Shown here one piece after another: positions 1,701 through 43,305 of a stretch of 43,642 nt of DNA. Source of the DNA: a virus. Position 1 is the first letter of the stretch. Every line of letters begins with the position of its first letter. Under the pieces are notes generated by a model. It was not told the origin of the DNA. It did no database searches and saw nothing but the letters and a program-made list of their open reading frames with translations. Made by a program: the position numbers and the translations under genes. The stretch covers positions 1-43,642 of the IMG/VR virus record IMGVR_UViG_3300029267_001394. One strand, given 5' to 3'.

Positions 1701-3101
1701 TTGCCCAAAGCCAAGCCGAAGGACGAGCCCAAGCTCGCCCCCTGGCCCGCCGACACCGTCGAGCGCCGGCCGATCGCTGACCTCGTCCCCTACGCCCGGA
1801 ACGCGAAGGTCCACCCGCCCGCGCAGATCGACCGGATCGCCGCGTCGATCCGCGAGTTCGGGTGGACGATCCCCGTTCTCGTCGACCCGGACGGGACCCT
1901 CATCGCCGGCCACGCGCGCCTCGAGGCGGCGCAGAAGCTCGGGCTCGAGGAAGTCCCGACGATGGTCGCCGAGGGGTGGAGCGCGGCGAAGCGCGCCGCC
2001 TACGTCCTCGCGGACAACCGCCTCGCGCAGGCCGAGTGGGACGACGACCTCCTCCGCGCCGAGATCGCGGAGATCGACCTCGACGGCTTCGACCTCGGCT
2101 TCACGGGGTTCGATCCGGACGAGATCGCGAAGCTCCTCGAGGACCCCCTCCCGCCGCTCTCGGGCTCGGACGGAGCCTCGAGCCTCGCGGAGACCTTCCT
2201 CGTCCCGCCGCTTTCGATCTTGGACAAGCGTCAGGGCTACTGGGTCGAGCGCGGACGGCGCTGGAAGGCGTCCCACGACTTCGACACGGACGCGAGCCGC
2301 GCGAACGTTGAGACCTGGGGCTCGTCGAAGTCGCGCTCGGACGCGACCCGCAAGCACGCGGAAATGACCGCCCAGAACGTCTCGATGTTCGACCCGGTCC
2401 TCGCCGAGGTTCTCCTCACCTGGTTCAGCGCCCCCGACGACCTCGTCGTCGACCCCTTCGCCGGGGGCTCCGTCCGGGGGATCGTCTCGGGGGAGCTAGG
2501 CCGGCGCTACCTCGGAGTGGATCTCCGGGAGGAGCAGGTCGAGCAGAACCGCGAGGCGCTCCGGGAGGAACTCGCCGAGCGCGTCCGCTGGATCGCCGGA
2601 GACGGCGCGGAGGAGATCGGGAAGCTCGAGGAGGAGTCCGCCGACTTCTCGCTCGCCTGCCCCCCGTATTTCAACCTGGAGAAGTACTCCGACGACCCGC
2701 GAGACCTCTCCGCGATGAAGTGGGACGGCTTCCTCGAGGTCTACCGCGCCGCGATCGCGGCGACGGTCCGAGCCCTCAAGCCGAACACTTTTGCCGCTTG
2801 GGTCGTCGGCGAGGTCCGGTCGACTCGAGGGTCGCGCGGTGAGTACGTCGGCTTCGTTCCCGAGACGATCCGCGCCTTCGTCGACGCCGGAGCGCCGCTC
2901 TACAACGAGCTGATCCTGGTCGAGCCCGGAGGGACAAAGGGGATGCGCGCGGCGCGGCCGATGCTCGCGAGCCGGAAGGTGGTCAAAAGTCACCAGAACG
3001 TCCTCGTCTTCGTGAAGGGCGACCCGAAGGCGGCGGCGCAGCGCCTCGGCCCGATCGAGCTGCCTCCCGAGGAGGAGGAGACCGAGGAGGAGACGGAGTA
3101 G
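1701..3101 (+). CDS. ParB-like domain fused to DNA methyltransferase
   Basis: A 466-residue two-domain protein. Residues about 20-130 form a ParB/sulfiredoxin-like N-domain (IADLVPYARNAKVHP, GWTIPVLVD, IAGHARLEAAQKLG, VLADNRLA). Residues about 230-450 form an N4/N6 amino-methyltransferase with motif I VVDPFAGGS (SAM binding) and a motif IV variant ACPPYF instead of the usual D/N/S-PP-Y/F. This combination is common beside phage terminase genes. It probably modifies phage DNA against host restriction, with the ParB part guiding DNA contact. The start is TTG at 1701, the first start codon after the in-frame stop at 1649. An acidic tail (EEEETEEETE) ends the protein 4 bases before the terminase small-subunit start. 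Confidence 0.9.
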   Translation: MPKAKPKDEPKLAPWPADTVERRPIADLVPYARNAKVHPPAQIDRIAASIREFGWTIPVLVDPDGTLIAGHARLEAAQKLGLEEVPTMVAEGWSAAKRAAYVLADNRLAQAEWDDDLLRAEIAEIDLDGFDLGFTGFDPDEIAKLLEDPLPPLSGSDGASSLAETFLVPPLSILDKRQGYWVERGRRWKASHDFDTDASRANVETWGSSKSRSDATRKHAEMTAQNVSMFDPVLAEVLLTWFSAPDDLVVDPFAGGSVRGIVSGELGRRYLGVDLREEQVEQNREALREELAERVRWIAGDGAEEIGKLEEESADFSLACPPYFNLEKYSDDPRDLSAMKWDGFLEVYRAAIAATVRALKPNTFAAWVVGEVRSTRGSRGEYVGFVPETIRAFVDAGAPLYNELILVEPGGTKGMRAARPMLASRKVVKSHQNVLVFVKGDPKAAAQRLGPIELPPEEEETEEETE

Positions 3102-5234: not shown

Positions 5235-8178
5235 GGGCTCGCCGGCGTCCCGGCTCGCGGTCCGCCTGCCGAACGGGCGCGTGGGCGTCCTCCGAGGCTC
5301 GGGGGCCGGCGTCCTCAAGTCCCTCGGGAGCTTCACCTCGTTCCCCTCGTCGATCCTCGGCGTCGGCAACGAGAAGTTCGAGACCGACAAGCTCGCGCGG
5401 CCCTACGAGCAGAGCGATTGGGTCTTCGCCTGCGTCTCGCTGATCCAAGACGCCTTCGCCGAGCTACCGCTCCGGGTCTATCCCGAGGACCCCCTCCGGG
5501 CGAAGGAGGAAGTCGAGCCGCTCCCCGAGAGCGACCCCCTCGCGCGCCTCTTCCTCGACTGGAACCCCCTCCACAACGCGGCGCTCGCAAACACCGCGAT
5601 CGCCCAGGGGCTCTGCCTCGACGGAGAGATCGGGCTCGTCTTGACCGCCGCCGGCGGCGAGCGCCTCGAGGTCTTCGGGCAGGGTCCCGGCGCCCGGATC
5701 GCGATCCCCGAGGAGATCTGGCCCGTCGCCGGCCCGGCGCTCCGGGAGAAGGTCAACCGCTCAACCCAGCTCATCGACGCCTGGACCGTCGTCGTCTCGG
5801 GCCGGCCGAAGGACTACGACCCGGCGACGGTCCTCGTTCCCCGGATCCTCCACCCCCGAAACCCCTTCCGAGGGTTCGGGCCGATGGAAGCCGCTTGGGG
5901 CCCGGCCGCCCAGAACTACCTCGCCGAACGCTATCGGAACTCGGTCCTGCGAAACGGCGGCGACCCGGGCGGGATCGTGATGATCGGCGAGATCCTCGAC
6001 CCGGACGACCGCGACCGGCTCAAGGAGGAGATCGTCGAGGAGTTCGACGACGTCGAGAACTCCGGCGGGACCCGCCTCCTCGAGGGAGGCGCGACCTACG
6101 AATCGAAGGCCTTCAACCCGAAAGAGATGGCCTACACCGAGAGTCTCGCGGCGAACCAGGACCGGGTCTCGGCGGTCTTCCGGGTCTCGAAGGAGCTGCT
6201 CGGGATGGGCGACTCCAACTTCGCCGCCCGCCTCAACGCGGAGCTAGGAGCCCTCTACAAGCTCCGGATCATCCCCTGGGCCCGCCTCGTCGAGAACGAG
6301 ATCAACGCCGGGCTGTTCCCCCGGCTCGTCGACCGGCGAGCGCAGGGCTACCGCGTCCGCTTCGACTTCTCCAAGGTCGAGGCGCTCCAGGGGGAGCTGG
6401 CCGAGAAGGCGGACCTCGCGAAGAAGCTCCAGCACTCCGGCGTCCCCCTCAATCAGGCGCTCAAGATCGCCCGGGTCCCGATCGAGGGCCCGATCGAGGG
6501 CGGCGACGTCCCGCTGATCCTCGGCTCCTGGCGCCCCCTCTCCGAGGTCGCGGCGCCCCCGCTGCCCCCGGAGGAGCCGGCGCCCGAGCCCGCCCCCGAA
6601 GAGGGCGGCCCGCAAGATCCCCCGAGCGAGCCCGAGGCGCCGACGGGCCCCAACGTAGCGGACAGAGAGGCGGCGGCGGATCCTCGAGCGACCCTCAACG
6701 GAGCCCAGGTCTCGGCGCTGGTCGACCTCATCGCGGGCGTGCTCTCCGGCGAGCTGCCGAAGACGACCGCCGCCGAGGTGATCGTCGCGGCGTTCCCGTT
6801 CGACCGGGCTCGCGCGATGCAGATCCTCGCCGAGGTCGAGGAGGGCGACGCCCCCGAGCCGCCGTCGGCCCCCGCGAGCCCGCCCCCGGCGGCTCCCGAG
6901 CCTCCGGAGGAGTCCGCCGAGGAGCGCGCGATCCGCGCCCTCGAGCGCGCCGGCGTGGCCCTGAGCGGCGCCTCGGCTCCCGCCGAGCCCGAGCCCGAGC
7001 CGGCGTCAGCGGCCCTCGAGCGCGCCGCCGCGAAGGACCCCCTCGCCTCGGCGACCGCCCGGCGAGAGTTCACCAAGGCGCAGGAGAAGCGCCGCCGCCC
7101 GCGCGAGACCGCGCTCCGCTCCAAGGTCCGCCGCGTCTTCGACAAGATGCGTCGGGCCCAGCTCCGCGCGCTCGACGAGTTCCTCGACACGGGCTCGCCG
7201 CCGCCGCCGCTCCCCCGGATCGACGGCTGGACCCTCGACCCGCCGCGCCGATCCCATGCCGCCCAAGGTCGGGCGCTGCTCGAGCGCGCCGCCCGGGACG
7301 GAGAAGCGACCAAGGGCGCCGAGGACTGGCTCGACGGGCCCGAGGTCTCGAGCTTCGCCCGCCGCCGCGACTGGAGTCCGGAAGACGTCGAGCGCCACCT
7401 CGACGCCTACCTCGTCCAGAAGGCGGACTTTCCCGACGCGGAGGTCGAGGCGCTCGTCCTCGCCGCCGAGCGCCGCTGGTCCGACGAGATGGCCCGGCTC
7501 CTCGCGCCCGTCCTCGAGGAGATCCTCGTCGAAGAGCTGGAGACGGTCGCCTCCGACCTCGGGATCCAGCAGATCGCCGCGACCGACCCGGCGGTTGTCC
7601 GCTTCCTTGCGACGAAGCCGATCGAGGTCGCGGAAGGCGTGAACTCGACGATCGCCCGCCAGGTCCGACGCCGGCTCCTCGCAGCGGTCGACGGCGCCCC
7701 GAGCGCGGCGACCCTGCAGGCGGCGCTCCTTGAGATCCGGGGGCTGATCACCGACGAGGTCCGGACGGTCTACTCCCACGCCCGGCAGCGCGCCCTAGCT
7801 ATCGCTCGGACCGAGGCCGGCATCGCCGCTTCCCATGCTCGAGCGGCCCAGATTCAGGCGGGCGTCGACGAGGGAGTCGTGATCGGGAAGCGCTGGATCA
7901 CCGGCGGCGGCGCTCCCGAGCGCGCCGGCGGCGCTCGCCGCGACGTCCACTGGGACCTGGACGGGACCGTCGTCGGACCGAACGAGGACTTCCAGATCGG
8001 CGCCGAGCGCGCTCCTCACCCCCGGCACCAGTCATTGAGCGCCGGGAACATCGTCAACTGCGGCTGCGACTTTGCCGCGATCGTCGAGGACGTCCCCGAC
8101 GTCGTCCTTCCCGGCGACTCCGAACTCGACCCGCCCGACGCCGTCGGCTCCCCGAGCGCGGTCCCTCCTAGCACCTGA
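5179..8178 (+). CDS. Portal protein fused to Mu F-like head morphogenesis domain
   Basis: A 999-residue fusion. Residues about 60-430 match HK97-type portals: a segment near SDWVFACVSLIQDAFAELPL, then NPLHNAALANTAIAQGLCLD, then RNGGDPGGIVMIGE, and KELLGMGDSNFAARLNAELG. The portal forms the dodecameric vertex through which DNA enters. A Pro/Glu-rich low-complexity linker follows. The last 130 residues (RTEAGIAASHARAAQ, then IVNCGCDFAAIV) resemble the Mu gpF/SPP1 gp7 minor head domain, normally a separate gene immediately after the portal. The fusion is uninterrupted. The start ATG lies inside the end of terL. Processing into two proteins after assembly is possible but not shown. Confidence 0.9.
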   Translation: MARQRKRPVAAPGPAAPAKGSPASRLAVRLPNGRVGVLRGSGAGVLKSLGSFTSFPSSILGVGNEKFETDKLARPYEQSDWVFACVSLIQDAFAELPLRVYPEDPLRAKEEVEPLPESDPLARLFLDWNPLHNAALANTAIAQGLCLDGEIGLVLTAAGGERLEVFGQGPGARIAIPEEIWPVAGPALREKVNRSTQLIDAWTVVVSGRPKDYDPATVLVPRILHPRNPFRGFGPMEAAWGPAAQNYLAERYRNSVLRNGGDPGGIVMIGEILDPDDRDRLKEEIVEEFDDVENSGGTRLLEGGATYESKAFNPKEMAYTESLAANQDRVSAVFRVSKELLGMGDSNFAARLNAELGALYKLRIIPWARLVENEINAGLFPRLVDRRAQGYRVRFDFSKVEALQGELAEKADLAKKLQHSGVPLNQALKIARVPIEGPIEGGDVPLILGSWRPLSEVAAPPLPPEEPAPEPAPEEGGPQDPPSEPEAPTGPNVADREAAADPRATLNGAQVSALVDLIAGVLSGELPKTTAAEVIVAAFPFDRARAMQILAEVEEGDAPEPPSAPASPPPAAPEPPEESAEERAIRALERAGVALSGASAPAEPEPEPASAALERAAAKDPLASATARREFTKAQEKRRRPRETALRSKVRRVFDKMRRAQLRALDEFLDTGSPPPPLPRIDGWTLDPPRRSHAAQGRALLERAARDGEATKGAEDWLDGPEVSSFARRRDWSPEDVERHLDAYLVQKADFPDAEVEALVLAAERRWSDEMARLLAPVLEEILVEELETVASDLGIQQIAATDPAVVRFLATKPIEVAEGVNSTIARQVRRRLLAAVDGAPSAATLQAALLEIRGLITDEVRTVYSHARQRALAIARTEAGIAASHARAAQIQAGVDEGVVIGKRWITGGGAPERAGGARRDVHWDLDGTVVGPNEDFQIGAERAPHPRHQSLSAGNIVNCGCDFAAIVEDVPDVVLPGDSELDPPDAVGSPSAVPPST

Positions 8179-31005: not shown

Positions 31006-31033
31006 GGGCTCGCGGCGACCAAACCGCGAGCCC
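31006..31033. terminator. Bidirectional intrinsic terminator between convergent units
   Basis: A perfect 10-bp stem GGGCTCGCGG / CCGCGAGCCC with loop CGACCAAA. TTGATT follows on the plus strand; the plus-strand bases AAAATAGAA before the stem become a U-rich tail on the minus strand. It sits between the end of the structural transcript (30897) and the end of the minus-strand operon (31097). Confidence 0.8.
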
Positions 31034-31052: not shown

Positions 31053-31190
31053 ATGAGCGCAAGGTCCCCCCAGGGTAACGGCCGCTCGGGGAAGGTCTAC
31101 CCCCTGCCGGGAGGACGGAGGAGCGCGTCGAGCCCTCGGACCTGGACGGTCTTCGCGACCCGGAAGGCGCCGCGCATCGTCTCGAGCTGA
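31053..31190 (+). CDS. Possible small ORF with early-type leader
   Basis: A 45-residue reading frame that starts with ATG 9 bases after GGAG at 31040-31043; the leader GGAGACCTGACGC nearly equals that of the early genes. The basic product shows no motif. Its last 94 bases overlap the 3' end of the minus-strand gene at 31097, which is well supported. It may be a real small gene, or the stump of an early gene cut by a past rearrangement. Confidence 0.3.
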   Translation: MSARSPQGNGRSGKVYPLPGGRRSASSPRTWTVFATRKAPRIVSS

Positions 31191-31897
31191 GCCTTCGGCG
31201 TCCGCCGCTGGGCTCCGAGCCCGAAAGCGTAGAGCCAGGAGAGGAGCGAGCGGTCGGCGAAGCCGGGGGGGATCGGCCCTCGCCCGGAGTCCGGGTCCCA
31301 GATCTCGGCCGCATAGCCGACTTGCCGCCAGGTCCAATGCCCCCGGCGGGCGCCCCAGACGAGGAGCGCGTCGCCGTCGGCGGTCTCGAGGTCGACCGCG
31401 TCGAAGAGGCCCGCCGCCTCGATCAGGTCCGCCGCGCGGCGCTCCCAGAGGTCCGCGAGGGCCTCGGCGACGTAGGTCGCCGTGTAGCGTTCGCCGGGCT
31501 CCGGTCGCGGCGCGGTCCAGGGGCCGAGGGAGGCGACGGAGCCGTTCTCGGCGACGAGCCCGGCCCAGACCGAGGGCGCGGAGGTCTGGTCGTTCGAGAA
31601 GCGGATCGTCGCGGCGAGCTGGGGCCGCCCTAGGACGTCTGCCGCCGATCCCCGAGGCCGGTCGACCGAATAGACCTGGCGGCCGGCGAGGATCACGTCG
31701 CGGCTCTGAGAGCGGCCCTCGATCGCCTCGAGGCGCGAGCCCCACCCTCGAGCCTCGAGGGCCGCGTCGAAGGCCTCGAGAACCTCGAGGTAGGCAATCG
31801 GGCGCCAGTAGCGGCCGGGCCCGGAGGGCTCGACGTCGTCGACCGGGGGCAGCTCCGCGAGGGAGGGTCGAGTGACGGGAGAGGAGGGCGTGATCAT
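31097..31897 (-). CDS. Hypothetical protein, minus-strand operon gene 4
   Basis: A 266-residue protein I do not recognise. It contains VLEAFDAALEARGWG, SRDVILAGRQVYSVDRP, LAATIRFSNDQTSAPSVWAG and YTATYVAEALADLWERRA, so a mixed alpha/beta fold is likely. The IRFSNDQT...SVWAGLV... plan is loosely like DUF932 phage/plasmid proteins, but the family is not certain. The ATG overlaps the stop of the 31894 gene (ATGA), the same coupling as elsewhere. The open frame extends upstream to 32797, but that part is a shadow. It is the last gene of the leftward unit. Confidence 0.7.
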   Translation of the reverse strand: MITPSSPVTRPSLAELPPVDDVEPSGPGRYWRPIAYLEVLEAFDAALEARGWGSRLEAIEGRSQSRDVILAGRQVYSVDRPRGSAADVLGRPQLAATIRFSNDQTSAPSVWAGLVAENGSVASLGPWTAPRPEPGERYTATYVAEALADLWERRAADLIEAAGLFDAVDLETADGDALLVWGARRGHWTWRQVGYAAEIWDPDSGRGPIPPGFADRSLLSWLYAFGLGAQRRTPKAQLETMRGAFRVAKTVQVRGLDALLRPPGRG

Positions 31898-32526
31898 TCG
31901 GAGCGGACCTCCTCGCCGGAGAGGGTCCGGACGCCGACCACCGGGTGGCCTGCGTGGTATCGGCCGAGCGTGTCGAGCTGCGACTCGCCGGCGAAGAGGG
32001 GAGTCCCGTACAGCTTGCGGCCGGTCGTCGCGAGGTGGGGGCGCGGAGCCTTCGTCCAGTACTTCTCGCCGGTGAAGGACGAGTATTCGGTCCAAAAGCC
32101 TGTGGCGGGAGCGATCTGCAGGTCGCCGGGGGCGGGCTGCGGACCCGGATCGAGAGCCTCGAGGACGGCGGCCCAGCGGCGCGCGAGCGTCGCGGCCATC
32201 AGTCCGCGCTCGTCGAGGACGGGGCTGGTCTTCGCCGGCGAGAGGTCGAGCGGCTCGAGGACGACCGCCCGAGGGCGCGGCCGGATCGACTCGACGCGAT
32301 GGGCCAGGTCGAAGGCTAGGGCTCGGACCGTCGCCGTCCGGAGCCTCTCGGCTTCGGGCAGGAAGAGGACGCCGGCGCCCTCCGTCCGCGAGCCGCGCTC
32401 CTCGCCGGAGGCGATCGCGATCTCGGAGAGCATGGACGAGGGCGAGACCGTGTAGTGAGGGATTCGGAGGGGGGCGCCCGGGAGCAGGTCCCTGGCGTCT
32501 TCGAGCGAGAGGATGAGAGTTTGCAT
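31894..32526 (-). CDS. Hypothetical protein, minus-strand operon gene 3
   Basis: A 210-residue protein of unknown function. It has MLSEIAIASGEERG, AERLRTATVRALAFDLAHRV, an RAVVLEPLDLSPAKTSPVLDE segment, and a Trp/Tyr-rich stretch TGFWTEYSSFTGEKYWTKA. No membrane segment, cysteine pair or known catalytic motif is visible. The start is the ATG at 32526, 5 bases after the upstream stop. The larger open frame upstream to 33357 is a shadow. It is probably co-transcribed with its three minus-strand neighbours. Confidence 0.7.
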   Translation of the reverse strand: MQTLILSLEDARDLLPGAPLRIPHYTVSPSSMLSEIAIASGEERGSRTEGAGVLFLPEAERLRTATVRALAFDLAHRVESIRPRPRAVVLEPLDLSPAKTSPVLDERGLMAATLARRWAAVLEALDPGPQPAPGDLQIAPATGFWTEYSSFTGEKYWTKAPRPHLATTGRKLYGTPLFAGESQLDTLGRYHAGHPVVGVRTLSGEEVRSE

Positions 32527-32531
32527 TTGGC

Positions 32532-32912
32532 TTACCAGTCGCAGACTTCGTGGATCGGGACCGGGCAGTCGAAGGGCCAGCGGGAATCGCTCGAGGCGAG
32601 CCAGTCGCCGGCAAAGCAGGCGCCGCTCGTCGGGCCGTCGACAGGGCGACCTTCCTCGTCGAGGAAGTGGACGACGACCCGGGCGACCTCGCCGAGCGCG
32701 ACGCTGGTCTCGTTGGAGATGAAGCGGCGGACCTTCGGGCGGACGTAGGCGAGGGCGCCGACGCGCCCCTTTTCGGCCTTGGAGAAGATCCGGACAAGGA
32801 GGCTCGAGCGAGCGACGTCGCCGATCCGGACGCCGTCGACTTCGTAGGCGACGGAGATCGGGCGGGAGCGGTCGCGGTCGCTCGCGCGCCAGGCGAGTTC
32901 GGGGAGTTTCAT
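32532..32912 (-). CDS. Hypothetical protein, minus-strand operon gene 2
   Basis: A 126-residue protein of unknown function. It is beta-rich (ISVAYEVDGVRIGDVARSS, then VGALAYVRPKVRRF) and ends in a Trp/Cys-containing tail (FDCPVPIHEVCDW). The ATG at 32912 is preceded by GAGACCTGACC, the early-gene leader in a slightly weaker form, which decides the start. A hairpin at 32946-32967 lies between it and the upstream gene and may lower its expression. Confidence 0.68.
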   Translation of the reverse strand: MKLPELAWRASDRDRSRPISVAYEVDGVRIGDVARSSLLVRIFSKAEKGRVGALAYVRPKVRRFISNETSVALGEVARVVVHFLDEEGRPVDGPTSGACFAGDWLASSDSRWPFDCPVPIHEVCDW

Positions 32913-32974: not shown

Positions 32975-33217
32975 TCAGGCGTCGAAGGCGACGAGGCCCG
33001 AGCGATGAGCGAGAAGCTCGACCTTGTCGCTCGGTTCCGGCTGGACCTCGTCGGCGAAGACGAGAACTTCGACGCCCGCCGAGCGGAGGTCGGCCGTCCG
33101 GACCAGGACGCAGGAGCCGACCAGCTCGACGACGCGAGCCCGAAGAAGCTGCACCTCGCCGGCGAGCGAGATCGGAGCGAGGACCGCCTGGCCCTGCTGG
33201 AGAGAAGAGAGATCCAT
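32975..33217 (-). CDS. Hypothetical protein, minus-strand operon gene 1
   Basis: An 80-residue protein with a compact beta pattern: QQGQAVLAPISLAGEVQLLRARVVEL in pieces, SCVLVRTADLRSAGVEVLVF, then LLAHRSGLVAFDA. This looks like a small SH3-like or OB-like barrel, but no family is recognised. It is the first gene of the leftward operon, about 55 bases after the candidate start site from the promoter at 33280. A plus-strand frame covering the same bases has weaker sequence character and no leader. Confidence 0.65.
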   Translation of the reverse strand: MDLSSLQQGQAVLAPISLAGEVQLLRARVVELVGSCVLVRTADLRSAGVEVLVFADEVQPEPSDKVELLAHRSGLVAFDA

Positions 33218-33251
33218 CGAAGCGCCTTGGCTTGAGGAGGACGGGAAGTGG

Positions 33252-33270
33252 GGGAGCGCCTCTCGCTCCC
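33252..33270 (-). promoter_or_regulatory. Leader hairpin of the minus-strand operon
   Basis: A 7-bp stem GGGAGCG / CGCTCCC with a 5-base loop, followed on the minus strand by CCCACTTCCC. It lies in the transcribed leader between the candidate promoter and the first gene and resembles the hairpin at 32946. Attenuation or mRNA stabilisation is possible. Confidence 0.4.
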
Positions 33271-33279
33271 GCCGACACT

Positions 33280-33308
33280 CTTATCTGAGCAAGCGCGGCC
33301 CGGGCCGG
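33280..33308 (-). promoter_or_regulatory. Candidate leftward promoter
   Basis: On the minus strand GATAAG (33285-33280) is a reasonable -10 hexamer. With a 17-base spacer its -35 would fall at 33308-33303, at the edge of the operator-like palindrome 33307-33319; no good -35 sequence is visible there. It would drive the four minus-strand genes. Confidence 0.4.
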
Positions 33309-33319
33309 GAAGCCTTCCC
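33307..33319. promoter_or_regulatory. Putative operator, copy 2 (leftward half of tandem pair)
   Basis: GGGAAGCCTTCCC, a perfect palindrome around its centre. It directly abuts copy 3 and by geometry covers the -35 region of the leftward promoter. Confidence 0.6.
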
Positions 33320-33332
33320 GGGAAATCTTCCC
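33320..33332. promoter_or_regulatory. Putative operator, copy 3 (rightward half of tandem pair)
   Basis: GGGAAATCTTCCC, directly adjacent to copy 2. Its GGGAAA lies 17 bases from TAGAGT (33343-33348), so a bound protein would block the -35 region of the regulator's own promoter. Confidence 0.65.
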
Positions 33333-33348
33333 GCGAATCGGCTAGAGT
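33320..33348 (+). promoter_or_regulatory. Candidate promoter of the XRE regulator, leaderless
   Basis: TAGAGT at 33343-33348 ends 7 bases before the ATG at 33356, so the transcript probably begins at or beside the start codon. The -35 position is occupied by GGGAAA of the operator. The same geometry recurs at 41064-41092. Confidence 0.5.
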
Positions 33349-33355
33349 CTCCCGC

Positions 33356-33676
33356 ATGGAAACTCACGACCTCCGAGCGACCCGCGTCTCCGGCTTCCGG
33401 TTCGAAGCAGCCTGGAGCCCGGACGCCTTCCTCATCCTCCGGACCCAGCGCCGCCTCTCTCTCGAGCGCGTCCGAGAGGGCATCGCGGAGCGCCTCGGCG
33501 CCGACCGCGCGCCTTCGATCTCCGCGCTAGGCCGTTGGAACAAGGAAGGCAGCGGCGGACCGCGAGACCTCGAGACCCTCGGCGCTTTGGCTTCCGTCCT
33601 CGGGGCGGACCCGGGCGCCTTCTACCGTCCCGAGCCGGCGACGCTCTCCGAGCTTGCCGCGCTCGAGATCCGATAA
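33356..33676 (+). CDS. XRE-family transcriptional regulator
   Basis: A 106-residue protein. Residues about 25-92 form a helix-turn-helix: LILRTQRRLSLERVREGIAE, then APSISALGRWNKEGSGGPR and LETLGALASVLGADPGAFYRPE, the usual XRE/Cro-CI layout. The first 20 residues are an extra strand-forming lead. It lies downstream of a tandem operator pair that overlaps its own promoter, so autoregulation is likely. It is the best candidate to bind the other GGGAA...TCCC sites. Divergent from it lies the minus-strand operon; downstream lie exonuclease and recT. The ATG is chosen over the longer frame from 33248, which would cross the operators. Confidence 0.82.
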   Translation: METHDLRATRVSGFRFEAAWSPDAFLILRTQRRLSLERVREGIAERLGADRAPSISALGRWNKEGSGGPRDLETLGALASVLGADPGAFYRPEPATLSELAALEIR

Positions 33677-33699: not shown

Positions 33700-34755
33700 A
33701 TGACCAGAATCAAGACCACCCCCCCGGACCTCGTCGACGAGGAGACCCTCGCGCTTTGGAATGAGACGCGAGCCGCAGGGATCGGAGCGAGCGAAGCAGC
33801 CGCCGCGCTCGGCTTCCCCGAGGCTTGGGGCGACCCCCTCAAGCTCTGGGCCGAGAAGACCGGCGAACTCGACCGGAACCGGCCGCTCGACGACCTCTCG
33901 CGAGAGCGGCTCTATTGGGGCCACCGGATGGAGCCCGTCCTCATGGCCGAGCTGGAGAGCCGGCTCCCGTTCGAGACTCTCGACCCGGCGGCGGCTCCCT
34001 CGCTCGCCTCGGCCGACTGCGTCGCCAACTGCGGCAAGCTCGGGCGGATCTTCGCTTCGGCCGACCTTCCCTGGCTCCGCTCAACCCCCGACGGCTTCGC
34101 GAGGGCTCTCCGCGACTGCGACTTCGTCGACGCGAGCGACGAGACTTTCCGCGTCGCCGAGGGAGAGATGGGGCTCGTCGAGATCAAGACCTCGAGCGCC
34201 TACGTCGCGGACAAATGGGAGGGCGGGCCGCCGGAGCACTACCTCGTCCAGGTCTGGCAGTCGCTCGCGGTCTTCGAACTCCCCTGGGCTCTCGTCGTCG
34301 TCCTCGTCGGCGGAAACGACTTCCGGGTCTACGGCGTCCGCCGGCTCGACGAGGAGGCCGAGACGGGCCTCATGGATCGCCTCGGAGAGTTCTGGGGCTA
34401 CGTCGAGAGCGGCAAACGTCCGCCGCAGCCCGAGAAGGGCGACCCGGGATGGGCGAAGCGCCTCGAGGCGCTCAAGCTCCTTCACCCCTCAGACAACGCC
34501 GAGCCGGTCAAGATCTCGGCCGACACGGGAAAGCTCCTCAAGCGACGCGAGACCCTCAAGAAGCAGATCAAGGACCGCGAGGCCGAGATCGACGAGATCG
34601 AGGGCCGCGTCCGGGAGGAGCTTGGAGACCACGCCGTCGGGGTTACTCTCGACGGGAAGTTCACGGCGACGCTGTCGACCGTGAGCGTCAAGGCGAGGAC
34701 CCAAGAGGTCGCCGCCTACACCTTCCGAAACCTGCGGCTCGTCCAGAGCAAATAG
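33700..34755 (+). CDS. YqaJ-type phage exonuclease
   Basis: A 351-residue lambda-exonuclease-like nuclease that resects double-stranded ends for RecT. GIGASEAAAALG (27-38) is the YqaJ opening motif; GHRMEP supplies Glu79 or nearby, STPDG gives Asp131, and LVEIKTSS gives Glu161 and Lys163. YLVQVWQSLAVF (181-192) carries the conserved Gln. The C-terminal third is a helical extension (KLLKRRETLKKQIKDREAEI) seen in other YqaJ recombinases. It precedes recT, forming an exonuclease-annealase pair. The start is the ATG after the GGAG leader. Confidence 0.92.
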   Translation: MTRIKTTPPDLVDEETLALWNETRAAGIGASEAAAALGFPEAWGDPLKLWAEKTGELDRNRPLDDLSRERLYWGHRMEPVLMAELESRLPFETLDPAAAPSLASADCVANCGKLGRIFASADLPWLRSTPDGFARALRDCDFVDASDETFRVAEGEMGLVEIKTSSAYVADKWEGGPPEHYLVQVWQSLAVFELPWALVVVLVGGNDFRVYGVRRLDEEAETGLMDRLGEFWGYVESGKRPPQPEKGDPGWAKRLEALKLLHPSDNAEPVKISADTGKLLKRRETLKKQIKDREAEIDEIEGRVREELGDHAVGVTLDGKFTATLSTVSVKARTQEVAAYTFRNLRLVQSK

Positions 34756-34766: not shown

Positions 34767-35906
34767 ATGACCAACAATCAGACCAAAGCCGTCGCGGCAG
34801 TCCGCGACTCCCTCGAGGGCCTCGGCCCGAAGATCGCCGCGATCGCTCCCAACGCGCTCAACCTCGACCGCTTCGTCGGCGTCGTCGTCCATGCGGTCCA
34901 GAAGACGCCGAAGCTCCTCGAGTGCAACCCGACCTCGCTCCTCTCGGCGGTCATGGAGTCCGCCGCTCTCGGGCTGACTCCGTCGGGCGTCCTCGGCGAA
35001 AGCTACCTCGTCCCGCGCGGCGGGACCGTCAACCTCCAGGTCGGCTACAAGGGACTGGTCAAGCTCGCGCTCGAGAGCGGGCAAGTCCGGCAGATCGTCG
35101 CGCGCCCGGTCTACAAGAAGGACCGCTTCCGCTATTCCTTCGGGCTCGAGGAGGACACCTTCGAGCACATCCCGACCGAGGATCCGGAGCGCGGGCAGGT
35201 CGTCCGCGCCTACGCCATCGCCCGCATGGTCGACGGACCCGCGCAGCTCGAGGTCACGGCGCTCGCCGACATTCTCCAAGCGAAGGCCGTCGCGCAGACG
35301 TCGAACGTCTGGGACCAATGGTTCGGAGCGATGGCGGCGAAGACGTCGGTCCGCCGGCTCTGCCGGCTGCTGACCCTCTCGCCGGAGTACCACCGCGCGC
35401 TCGCGATCGACGACGGAGAGATCGCTCCCGGCGAGGACCGCGACTTCGGGCTCGGGAAGACGGTCGACGTCCCGGCGAAGTCGAAGGCGGCGGCGGCGGC
35501 GGATCGGCTGCGGCCGAAGGGCGCTGATCCCCGAAAGGCCCCCGAGCCGGAGAAGGAGCCCGAGCCCGAGGAGACCGCGCCGCCGACCGGCGACGTCGAC
35601 CCGATCCTCTCCGACGAGGAAAGCCCCTGGGCGGACTCCGATCGGGATCGAGAGGAGGCGCCGAGCGAGCCCGACGTCTCCGGCGAGGACGACGCGCCCG
35701 AGGAGCCCGAGCCGGCTTCCCGCAAGGCAGGCAAGGCCACGATCGGCAAGCTCCAGGGCGCCGCGAACCGCGCCGGCGCGACGCCGGAGCAGCTCGAGAA
35801 GCTCGCGGTCGCGGCCGGCGCGGAGTCGCTCGAGAGCCTCACGATGGCGCAGGCGCGCGAGGTCAAGACCTGGCTCGAGTCGAAGGCCTGGGTCGACTTC
35901 GTCTAG
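34767..35906 (+). CDS. recT: RecT-like single-strand annealing protein with long C-terminal extension
   Basis: A 379-residue annealase. Residues about 1-230 match RecT: LVSAVMESAALGL-type segment (here LLSAVMESAALGLTPSG), YLVPRGGTVNLQVGYKGLVKLA, QWFGAMAAKTSVRRLCRLL. It anneals single strands produced by the upstream exonuclease. The remaining 150 residues are an acidic Pro/Glu linker and a helical ending (GKLQGAANRAGATPEQLEKLA, LTMAQAREVKTWLESKAW) that looks like a small SAP- or UBA-like domain, longer than typical RecT tails. It may bind SSB or helicase. The stop precedes an operator-like site. Confidence 0.9.
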   Translation: MTNNQTKAVAAVRDSLEGLGPKIAAIAPNALNLDRFVGVVVHAVQKTPKLLECNPTSLLSAVMESAALGLTPSGVLGESYLVPRGGTVNLQVGYKGLVKLALESGQVRQIVARPVYKKDRFRYSFGLEEDTFEHIPTEDPERGQVVRAYAIARMVDGPAQLEVTALADILQAKAVAQTSNVWDQWFGAMAAKTSVRRLCRLLTLSPEYHRALAIDDGEIAPGEDRDFGLGKTVDVPAKSKAAAAADRLRPKGADPRKAPEPEKEPEPEETAPPTGDVDPILSDEESPWADSDRDREEAPSEPDVSGEDDAPEEPEPASRKAGKATIGKLQGAANRAGATPEQLEKLAVAAGAESLESLTMAQAREVKTWLESKAWVDFV

Positions 35907-35918
35907 CCTCTCCCGATC

Positions 35919-35931
35919 GGGAAAAAATCCC
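35919..35931. promoter_or_regulatory. Putative operator, copy 4
   Basis: GGGAAAAAATCCC, 12 bases after the recT stop, in a 181-base gap. It sits 9 bases upstream of a possible -35 (TCGACC, 35941), similar to the sites at 1201 and 43293. Confidence 0.55.
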
Positions 35932-35939
35932 GGGAACAA

Positions 35940-35974
35940 GTCGACCCTGCTCGCCTCTCGCGAGTAGGGTCGAC
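35940..35974 (+). terminator. 15-bp hairpin after recT, terminator-like
   Basis: GTCGACCCTGCTCGC (35940-35954) pairs with GCGAGTAGGGTCGAC (35960-35974) with one G-U pair and a 5-base loop. There is no U-tract. Its right arm ends in TAGGGTCGAC, also found in the hairpin at 39774-39821. It may terminate the exonuclease-recT transcript or regulate the downstream promoter. Confidence 0.6.
35941..35970 (+). promoter_or_regulatory. Candidate promoter for the lipoprotein unit
   Basis: TCGACC (35941-35946) and TAGGGT (35965-35970) with an 18-base spacer, downstream of operator copy 4. It lies inside the hairpin, so promoter and terminator functions overlap or only one is real. It would start a unit at 36088. 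Confidence 0.3.
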
Positions 35975-36075
35975 GTCGTTCGGGGGAGACCGTCTCCTCC
36001 GGCATTCCACCCTTGGCGGGATGGACGCGAGCCCGGGCGGCTCTCGAGTCGCTCGGGCCCCTTCCCGCCCCCCCC

Positions 36076-36486: not shown

Positions 36487-37170
36487 ATGCCGCGCTCTCC
36501 TTTCTCGCCGATCCCGGCGTCCGAGGTCATTCCGCCGACGCGGACGATCCCCGAGGTCGCGAAGGACACCGTCCTAGCCTTCCTGCGGACCCGGCAACGC
36601 CCGGCGCTCGCCGGCGCGATCAAGCACGGGACCCGGCTAAACTCCGCGAGCTACGTCCACCAGGTCTGTCGGCAGCTCGCGGTCGAAGGTCGCGTCGAGG
36701 TCTTTCGCAAGGTCGGCGGCGGACAGCTTCGCTATTACAAGCTCGCCTACGAGTCCGAGATCGGCCCTCTCTTCGGGTCGGAGCCCTCAGGCATGACGGC
36801 GGCGGACGTCGAGGAGCGCCTCGTCGAGGTCGCGACCGCCGGCGACGCTCCGGCTCGGCAAGTCCTCACGCAAATGGCCGAGATTCGCGCCGGCGAGGTC
36901 GAGGCCGCCGAGCGCGAGGTCGCAGCTCGCGCGGCGGATCCGGAGGTCCAGCGCTTCGGCTTCTGCCGCGACGACGTCGACAAGCTCCGGACCGGCGTCG
37001 AGCTACTTGCCCGGTCCGCGTCGGCGCGTCTTGCGCAGACCGAGACCGACCGCGCTCTCGGCTCCGAGGTCGACGGCGTCGATGAGTCTATGCTGACGGA
37101 CGCCCGCAACCGCCTGCTCGAGATCCACCGCGCGCTCTCGTCGCTGCGCCACGACCTCGAGGTCGCATGA
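36487..37170 (+). CDS. Winged-helix-like DNA-binding protein
   Basis: A 227-residue protein. The N-terminal 80 residues look like a winged helix: PEVAKDTVLAFLRTRQRPALA, NSASYVHQVCRQLAVEGRVEVFRK and GGGQLRYYKLAY, a recognition helix followed by a beta wing. The rest is helical with acidic and basic patches (AEIRAGEVEAAEREVAARAA), suited to dimerisation. It may regulate the replication-recombination operon or support replication. No specific family is recognised. It lies 3 bases after the lipoprotein stop and overlaps the next ATG. Confidence 0.68.
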   Translation: MPRSPFSPIPASEVIPPTRTIPEVAKDTVLAFLRTRQRPALAGAIKHGTRLNSASYVHQVCRQLAVEGRVEVFRKVGGGQLRYYKLAYESEIGPLFGSEPSGMTAADVEERLVEVATAGDAPARQVLTQMAEIRAGEVEAAEREVAARAADPEVQRFGFCRDDVDKLRTGVELLARSASARLAQTETDRALGSEVDGVDESMLTDARNRLLEIHRALSSLRHDLEVA

Positions 37171-40061: not shown

Positions 40062-41372
40062 GTGAGGGTCGAAGGCAAAGGACGCGCCCGGAAGCCCTCG
40101 AGGCTCGGAGGCGCCGGCGGGCTGGAGCGCCTGCAGCGCTTCCTCGTCGACCGAGGAGCGCCGATCCGGGGGCTCCCCGGAGCCGCCGCGCTTGACCTCG
40201 GGAACGGGATTCTCGCGACGGAGCTAGGAGTCTCGACGCGGACGATCCGTGTCTGGCTCGCGGCGCTTCGCGACCTCGGGCGTCTCTCGACCTGGACCCA
40301 CGCGCGCAAGGTCGCCGGCGCCTGGGCCGGGCAGGTCCGCGTTCTCGTTGTCCACGAGCCCGGGATGGGCGCGCAGGCGAAGCTCTGGGGACAGACCGCC
40401 CGGGTCCGCGCTCGAGGTCACTGGCGCGACCTCTCGGCCTTCCGCCTCACCGAGGCGGCCGACGTCCCGGTCGAGCTACCGCCGGCGCCCTCGCGCGGCA
40501 TGGAGGGCGCGACGAAGCGCCGCCGCTTCCGCACAGCATCCCCCGAGAGCCCCTCTGGGGCTCCGGGGGAGATCAAGGCCCCCTCGGGCTCCGTTCCGGA
40601 AGCTCCGACCCGGGCTCCGCGTCTCCGGCCGCCGGCGGTCCGCGCGGCTCGACGGCGGCTCTGGGCTCTCGGCTTGCGGGGGGACGGGCTCGACGCGGTC
40701 TCGGGCTACCTCGAGCAGGCGCTCGAGGCCTTCCCGGAGAGCCGAGGGAGGATCCTCGAGGCGCTCGAGGCGCTCGAGGGCCGCGCTCGGCGCGCACGCT
40801 GCGGGCCGGCCCCGTTCGTCCTCGGCGCCCTTCGGCGCGGCTGGGCGCCCTGGGACGAGCCGAGCGAGGCCCCCTCGCCGCCGCCACAACTCCCGGCCGA
40901 CGCCGCCGCGATGGCGCGAGCCCGGATCCCGAGCCCTCTCCGCGCTCGGACGCCGCTCGCCGAGGCGCGCGAGGTTTACCGCTGGGCTCGAGCGGAACTC
41001 GCCGGCCTCGGTCTCGGAAGGGCGACGATCGGCCGCGCTCTCGCGGAAGTCCGCCGCGCGGCTGGGAAATCCTCCCGGGGCGTGGGTAGCCTCCGGCCCA
41101 TGATTGGAGACCTACTCGCGACCGCCCGAGAGGCGGCGCGCGACCCGGGCGCCTACGTCGTCGCCGCCTTGCGGCACGGCTGGGGCCCCTGGGCGCAAGC
41201 TCACCGCCCGCCGGCGGCTCGCCCCCTCCCCCCGACCCGATCGGAGGCGCTCGCCGCCCTCGAGCGCGCGAAGGCGCAGGCGCTCGAGGCGCTCGCGCCG
41301 CGACCCTCGAGGACGACCGGCGGCTCGCCGGCGACCTTCCTCGCCTGGATCCAGCCGGGGGCCGAGCAATGA
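40062..41372 (+). CDS. Replication initiator-like protein with winged helix and repeated C-terminal domain
   Basis: A 436-residue protein directly before DnaB, the usual place for a phage initiator or helicase loader. Residues about 48-80 form a helix-turn-helix (LATELGVSTRTIRVWLAALRD) after a basic N-terminus. A Pro/Ser-rich linker (about 155-200) follows. The C-half holds two helical units, each ending in a similar motif: FVLGALRRGWAPW (252-264) and YVVAALRHGWGPW (364-376). An operator-like motif and TAG-type -10 lie inside the gene, before an in-frame ATG at 41100 that would yield a separate 90-residue C-terminal product. The GTG start at 40062 is the first in frame. The initiator role is inferred. 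Confidence 0.75.
   Translation: MRVEGKGRARKPSRLGGAGGLERLQRFLVDRGAPIRGLPGAAALDLGNGILATELGVSTRTIRVWLAALRDLGRLSTWTHARKVAGAWAGQVRVLVVHEPGMGAQAKLWGQTARVRARGHWRDLSAFRLTEAADVPVELPPAPSRGMEGATKRRRFRTASPESPSGAPGEIKAPSGSVPEAPTRAPRLRPPAVRAARRRLWALGLRGDGLDAVSGYLEQALEAFPESRGRILEALEALEGRARRARCGPAPFVLGALRRGWAPWDEPSEAPSPPPQLPADAAAMARARIPSPLRARTPLAEAREVYRWARAELAGLGLGRATIGRALAEVRRAAGKSSRGVGSLRPMIGDLLATAREAARDPGAYVVAALRHGWGPWAQAHRPPAARPLPPTRSEALAALERAKAQALEALAPRPSRTTGGSPATFLAWIQPGAEQ
41064..41076. promoter_or_regulatory. Operator-like motif inside the initiator gene, copy 5
   Basis: GGGAAATCCTCCC, a weaker copy of the motif, within coding sequence. With TAGCCT (41087-41092) and ATG (41100) it repeats the spacing of the regulator's promoter. 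Confidence 0.4.
41064..41092 (+). promoter_or_regulatory. Possible internal leaderless promoter
   Basis: GGGAAA, 17 bases, TAGCCT, then 7 bases to an in-frame ATG at 41100. Identical spacing to 33320-33356. It could express the last 90 codons of the initiator gene on their own. Confidence 0.35.
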
Positions 41373-43292: not shown

Positions 43293-43305
43293 GGGAAATA
43301 TTCCC
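43293..43305. promoter_or_regulatory. Putative operator, copy 6
   Basis: GGGAAATATTCCC, one of the most symmetrical copies, in a 119-base gap. It lies 9 bases upstream of TTGACC. Confidence 0.6.

Follow-up and report, generated by a model that had tools for sequence, protein, structure and literature searches.

Abutting palindromes in a divergent gap of a metagenomic tailed phage: a candidate two-site operator for a Cro-like regulator

The divergent gap and its predicted promoters

Does one protein, bound between two diverging transcription units, control both of them in the phage of IMG/VR record IMGVR_UViG_3300029267_001394? The stretch analyzed here (hereafter, the window; 43,642 bases, 70% G+C) has the gene content of a tailed phage, with profile matches to terminase, portal, head, tape-measure, recombination, and DnaB proteins; no tyrosine or serine integrase was found in the window, and the record is a fragment. 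Its genes run rightward from 849 to 30897 on the plus strand, followed by a leftward four-gene unit (33217 to 31097, minus strand) and by a rightward early block that starts at 33356. This block comprises, in order, the regulator gene; a YqaJ/RecE-like recombination exonuclease gene (33700-34755; Pfam YqaJ, 6e-18; phrog_434, 6e-54); a gene for a RecT-like annealing protein (34767-35906; Pfam RecT, 4.5e-37; phrog_148, 5e-65); and then RusA and DnaB genes, all on the plus strand. A ParB-like domain fused to a DNA methyltransferase (phrog_498) is encoded at 1701-3101.

The leftward genes, all called by codon score on the minus strand, encode proteins of 80 aa (32975-33217), 126 aa (32532-32912), 210 aa (31894-32526), and 266 aa (31097-31897), the first three of which have no family match in Pfam, PHROGs, or NCBIfam and the last of which is unassigned in function. 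No leftward gene has a regulator match in Pfam, PHROG, or NCBIfam, profiles that also miss the XRE-like gene described below. A terminator-like hairpin lies at the end of the unit (31006-31033, minus strand). A homolog of the 266-aa protein, 74% identical, occupies the same position adjoining the late genes of the related contig L010, where the genes directly upstream of it (L010:1-605) differ from the window's third leftward gene; because gene 4 is kept and other genes stand upstream of it, the leftward operon is mosaic. A structure model of the 266-aa protein was discarded (pLDDT 51).

Between these units lies a 138-bp gap (33218-33355), which extends from the ATG at 33217 (minus strand) to the ATG at 33356 (plus strand). 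The initial annotation had placed two abutting 13-bp motifs in this gap, between the leftward unit and the regulator gene, and both the coordinates and the placement were verified. Putative operator 1 (GGGAAGCCTTCCC; 33307-33319) is an exact dyad with 6-bp arms and a 1-bp center, and it is abutted by putative operator 2 (GGGAAATCTTCCC; 33320-33332). Both are exact GGGAAnnnTTCCC palindromes with zero bases between them, and the pair taken together forms a 14-bp inverted repeat. An exact abutting pair arose in none of 100 second-order Markov simulations.

On the right side, operator 2 overlies the -35 slot of the probable promoter of the regulator gene, as its first bases (33320-33325) are exactly 17 bp from a probable -10 element, TAGAGT (33343-33348, plus strand), with a predicted start site at about 33355. 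TAGAGT is separated from the regulator ATG by only seven bases, and no Shine-Dalgarno sequence precedes this ATG; for these two reasons, the regulator mRNA is probably leaderless. An alternative, in-frame GTG start at 33248 has a good Shine-Dalgarno sequence and would place the operators inside the gene; it was rejected because the extension scores as noncoding, containing TTA, TCT, and AGA codons that are nearly unused in the phage.

On the left side, a possible weak -10 element lies at 33280-33287 (minus strand; CAGATAAG on the reverse strand), in which CAGATA, AGATAA, or GATAAG could be chosen, and the corresponding -35 slot falls at about 33303-33310, depending on the choice. No consensus is evident in this slot, which shares only ∼2-4 bases with operator 1, and a promoter scan found no sigma70 consensus promoter. 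The proposal that each motif covers one of two divergent -35 positions is therefore borne out for operator 2, whereas for operator 1 it is reduced to this slight overlap.

Dispersed copies in the window and in a relative

Three exact GGGAAnnnTTCCC copies occur in the window, compared with 0.03 (second-order Markov) to 0.04 (base composition) expected, and six occur with at most one mismatch, compared with 1.35 in simulations; the total with up to two mismatches is not above chance. The third exact copy (GGGAAATATTCCC; 43293-43305) is intergenic and lies 9 bp before TTGACC. The one-mismatch copies are (i) GGGAAAATATCCC (1201-1213), which is intergenic and lies 8 bp before TTGGCG-17-GATAGT; (ii) GGGAAAAAATCCC (35919-35931), in the gap behind recT; and (iii) GGGAAATCCTCCC (41064-41076), within the open reading frame 40062-41372. 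Five of the six are intergenic (binomial p 3.7e-7, about 0.003 after correction), so that the same site stands at several intergenic places, the stoperator-type pattern. Moreover, when every dyad with 5-bp arms and a spacer of 0-8 was screened (9,216 in all), with no prior choice of motif, the GGGAAnnnTTCCC dyad showed the top intergenic enrichment; by number of exact copies between genes, the leading dyad was the same motif one base longer (CGGGAnnnnnTCCCG, four copies).

Two of these copies have distinctive surroundings. The copy at 35919 adjoins a large, near-perfect inverted repeat that directly follows it behind recT (35940-35975; GTCGACCCT...AGGGTCGAC). The frame 40062-41372, which lies before DnaB, encodes a protein that is weakly HTH-like and may be a replication initiator. 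Inside this frame is a conserved ATG with TAGCCT and the one-mismatch copy ahead of it; 26 identical bases span this ATG in a relative, which suggests a nested gene start.

Related contigs were found by searches with the terminase and the 266-aa protein. L015 and L017 are one 15.4-kb contig, in which conserved genes share 80-91% protein identity with those of the window and which holds four copies with at most one mismatch, compared with 0.57 expected. The 43293 site is conserved at L015:2751, where GGGAAATATTCCC becomes GGGAAATTTTCCC, the palindrome center alone being altered and the flanks conserved. The copy at L015:9486 corresponds to that at 1201, as it lies behind the homolog of gene 849-1163, and the copy at L015:530 corresponds to that at 41064 with the same layout, a conservation confounded by coding, since the 41064 copy is in an open reading frame. 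The intergenic bias in this contig alone is not significant (p 0.067), for which poor gene calling there is a partial cause. The ParB-methyltransferase fusion has no homolog at the corresponding place in L015.

The contig does not include the regulator region, and searches of viral contigs that used the XRE protein, DnaB, and both the full RecT and its core as queries found no close relative spanning the switch (33.2-33.7 kb); a terminase search of bacterial and archaeal genomes also returned no relative. Two operators within 15 bp of each other occur at eight viral loci, none of which belongs to a close relative of the window phage.

The spacing of the sites hints at two working positions. 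At the regulator gene, at 41064, and at L015:530, the operator is followed by 10 nt, TAGnnT, 7 nt, and an ATG (TAGCCT and an in-frame ATG at 41064), whereas the sites at 1201, 35919, and 43293 lie 8-9 bp ahead of -35-like boxes; all of these distances were read by eye on a small number of sites and are only suggestive. A scan for the operator-10-TAGnnT-7-ATG layout gave two matches; both look like chance, and one is terminator-like.

Similar sequences were also seen in other phages. Three IMG/VR 3300028925 contigs of another phage (L004, L005, and L008) contain 8-9 scattered exact GGGAAnnnTTCCC copies, most of which have the longer form GGGGAAnnnTTCCCC; several apparently lie immediately 5' of genes. 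No HTH_3 protein was found on these contigs, and their sites look like an independent dispersed-operator or stoperator system. On L006, four GGGAACGGTTCCC copies form a 24-bp tandem array (6908-6992) with a fifth copy at 7064; this contig carries a distant DnaB, 27% identical to that of the window, and the array is possibly an origin.

Taken at the level of sequence, the recurrence of the copies between genes and their retention in the relative indicate that the operator pair belongs to a phage-wide set of sites. The initial annotation did not note this dispersal, which makes a regulon of more than two units probable.

The candidate regulator, its proposed circuit, and alternative readings

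The gene to the right of the pair (33356-33676, plus strand; supported by codon score) encodes a 106-aa protein with a predicted HTH fold at residues ∼22-90. It has no HTH match in Pfam, PHROG, or NCBIfam, Cro/C1-type sequence profiles included, and an HTH_3 search of the whole record was empty at E 10. AlphaFold, run on the single sequence, gave a well-predicted helical core (pLDDT about 80-93 over residues 21-90, and about 90 in the core of the HTH model) that Foldseek matched to P22 c2, 434 Cro, SinR, C.AhdI, and DdrO, as well as to phage XRE proteins. The probability was about 1.0 and the TM-score by target 0.65-0.82 for the first four, and all of the matches had modest E-values (0.005-0.1). 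The model thus has a lambda-repressor-like helical fold, to which we give moderate weight because it was built from a single sequence, and we take the protein to be a very divergent XRE (Cro/C1-type) regulator.

The palindromy of the motifs, the -35 position of operator 2, the intergenic recurrence, and the conservation in a relative together make it well supported, on sequence grounds, that the pair is a protein-binding operator governing the promoter of the regulator gene. Autoregulation by the XRE protein, which we infer to be the binder, is the best reading, and we consider it reasonably probable that the pair serves as an operator with two sites for an XRE (Cro/C1-type) regulator of the phage, most likely the adjoining 106-aa protein. 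As it accumulates, the regulator would fill operator 2 and so cover the -35 slot of the promoter from which its own, probably leaderless mRNA starts; its own gene and the exonuclease and RecT genes downstream would thereby be shut off. Operator 1 would let a second dimer bind beside the first, reaching the start of the leftward promoter, and the same protein probably acts at the single copies at 1201, 35919, and 43293, and perhaps at 41064. Both promoters, the repression on the right, and any effect on the left, be it repression or activation, are predictions. The initial annotation had one protein controlling both sides; this is supported for the regulator's own promoter, whereas control of the leftward operon is plausible, with either sign, and is suggested by proximity, the leftward promoter being poorly defined.

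By analogy with lambda CI, which activates on one side from OR2, and with the C proteins of restriction-modification systems, the window's regulator may activate one side, and activation of the leftward promoter with repression of its own is a possible variant, compatible with the best explanation, to which we give less than even weight. Consistent with this variant, the leftward promoter has no recognizable -35 element, and the center of operator 1 (33313) lies about 40 bp before the predicted leftward start at about 33273. The latter position is a guess, however, and the same center also lies at about -42 for the rightward promoter. C-protein genes are leaderless and have paired palindromes (OL/OR) upstream, from which the protein activates at a low level and represses at a high level (PMC4824078).

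The preferred reading, in which the XRE protein is the binder, also competes with one in which the sites are operators for another phage protein or for a host regulator, the XRE gene being merely regulated. The sites are scattered rather than restricted to the XRE gene, and two other proteins are candidates, namely 40062-41372, which matches HTH profiles weakly and has a conserved copy of the site inside its own reading frame, and 36487-37170, which has a weak match to phrog_2440 "transcriptional regulator" (E 0.005). Nevertheless, the only place with two exact sites together is the promoter of the XRE gene itself, where the sites of an autoregulator usually lie, and no exact abutting GGGAAnnnTTCCC pair occurs in 257 Gb of bacterial and archaeal genome sequence, which speaks against a common host regulator. 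We consider a different binder rather unlikely.

A function other than that of an operator, namely that of a repeat used in replication or partition, or of a hairpin or terminator in RNA, appears improbable. The palindromes can form hairpins, the pair is itself an inverted repeat, and one copy lies within the gene before DnaB. Against such functions, there is no T-run, folding of the strip is ordinary (z -0.78), and no Rfam family scored above threshold; the copies are mainly single and scattered, unlike clustered iterons, and several lie 8-10 bp ahead of promoter-like boxes. Chance palindromes are the least credible source, for although GGG/CCC arms are cheap at 70% GC and the count with up to two mismatches is unremarkable, copies that match exactly or with one mismatch are far more numerous than expected, lie between genes, and are seen again in the relative.

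An extension of the preferred autoregulatory reading to the whole infection is speculative, and we consider it rather unlikely. In this scheme, a phage with no recognizable integrase would time its whole infection with one very divergent Cro-like protein, which represses early genes and activates others through a genome-wide set of symmetric GGGAAnnnTTCCC sites. These would come in two fixed layouts: over the -35 where the gene is leaderless, and at other genes 8-9 bp ahead of the -35.

Comparison with known systems

The C proteins (C.Csp231I, C.AhdI, and C.Esp1396I) resemble the window's system in that a small XRE-fold autoregulator has two palindromes upstream of its own gene, and C.AhdI is among the Foldseek matches of the window's regulator; the leaderless gene is here a prediction. 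The systems differ in that the present one belongs to a phage and adjoins no restriction enzyme gene. No linked restriction-modification genes adjoin the switch, the neighbors being the exonuclease, RecT, and unassigned genes, and the ParB-methyltransferase fusion is distant (1701-3101). The palindromes also differ, as those in the window are of the GGGAAnnnTTCCC type, abut with a 13-bp period, and have additional single copies genome-wide.

The lambdoid CI/Cro switches (lambda, P22, and 434) and the CI/MOR switch of TP901-1 share with the window a Cro/C1-type regulator, divergent promoters, operators in the gap, and recombination genes downstream on the right side. They have three sites, whereas the window has two, which abut, and only one XRE-like gene was recognized in it. 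Further, no integrase was found here, and the left side consists of four unassigned genes.

Dispersed repressor sites over a phage genome are found with P1 c1 and in phiC31. In mycobacteriophages of the L5 type, one stoperator motif is repeated intergenically over the genome (PMC9283540). These stoperators are asymmetric and numerous, whereas the sites in the window are symmetric and number about five or six per 43.6 kb.

Both the motif, which was not found as a described phage operator in the open-access literature, and the phage group appear to be undescribed. The locus offers a concrete and cheaply testable control circuit for an uncharacterized phage group, known here from metagenome contigs alone, and it illustrates that operators can locate a regulator that profile searches miss. 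Abutting palindromes and a predicted leaderless gene make a compact switch whose principle is already familiar, as is the arrangement, in which a Cro-like autoregulator has dispersed sites in addition to its paired operators, as in stoperator phages.
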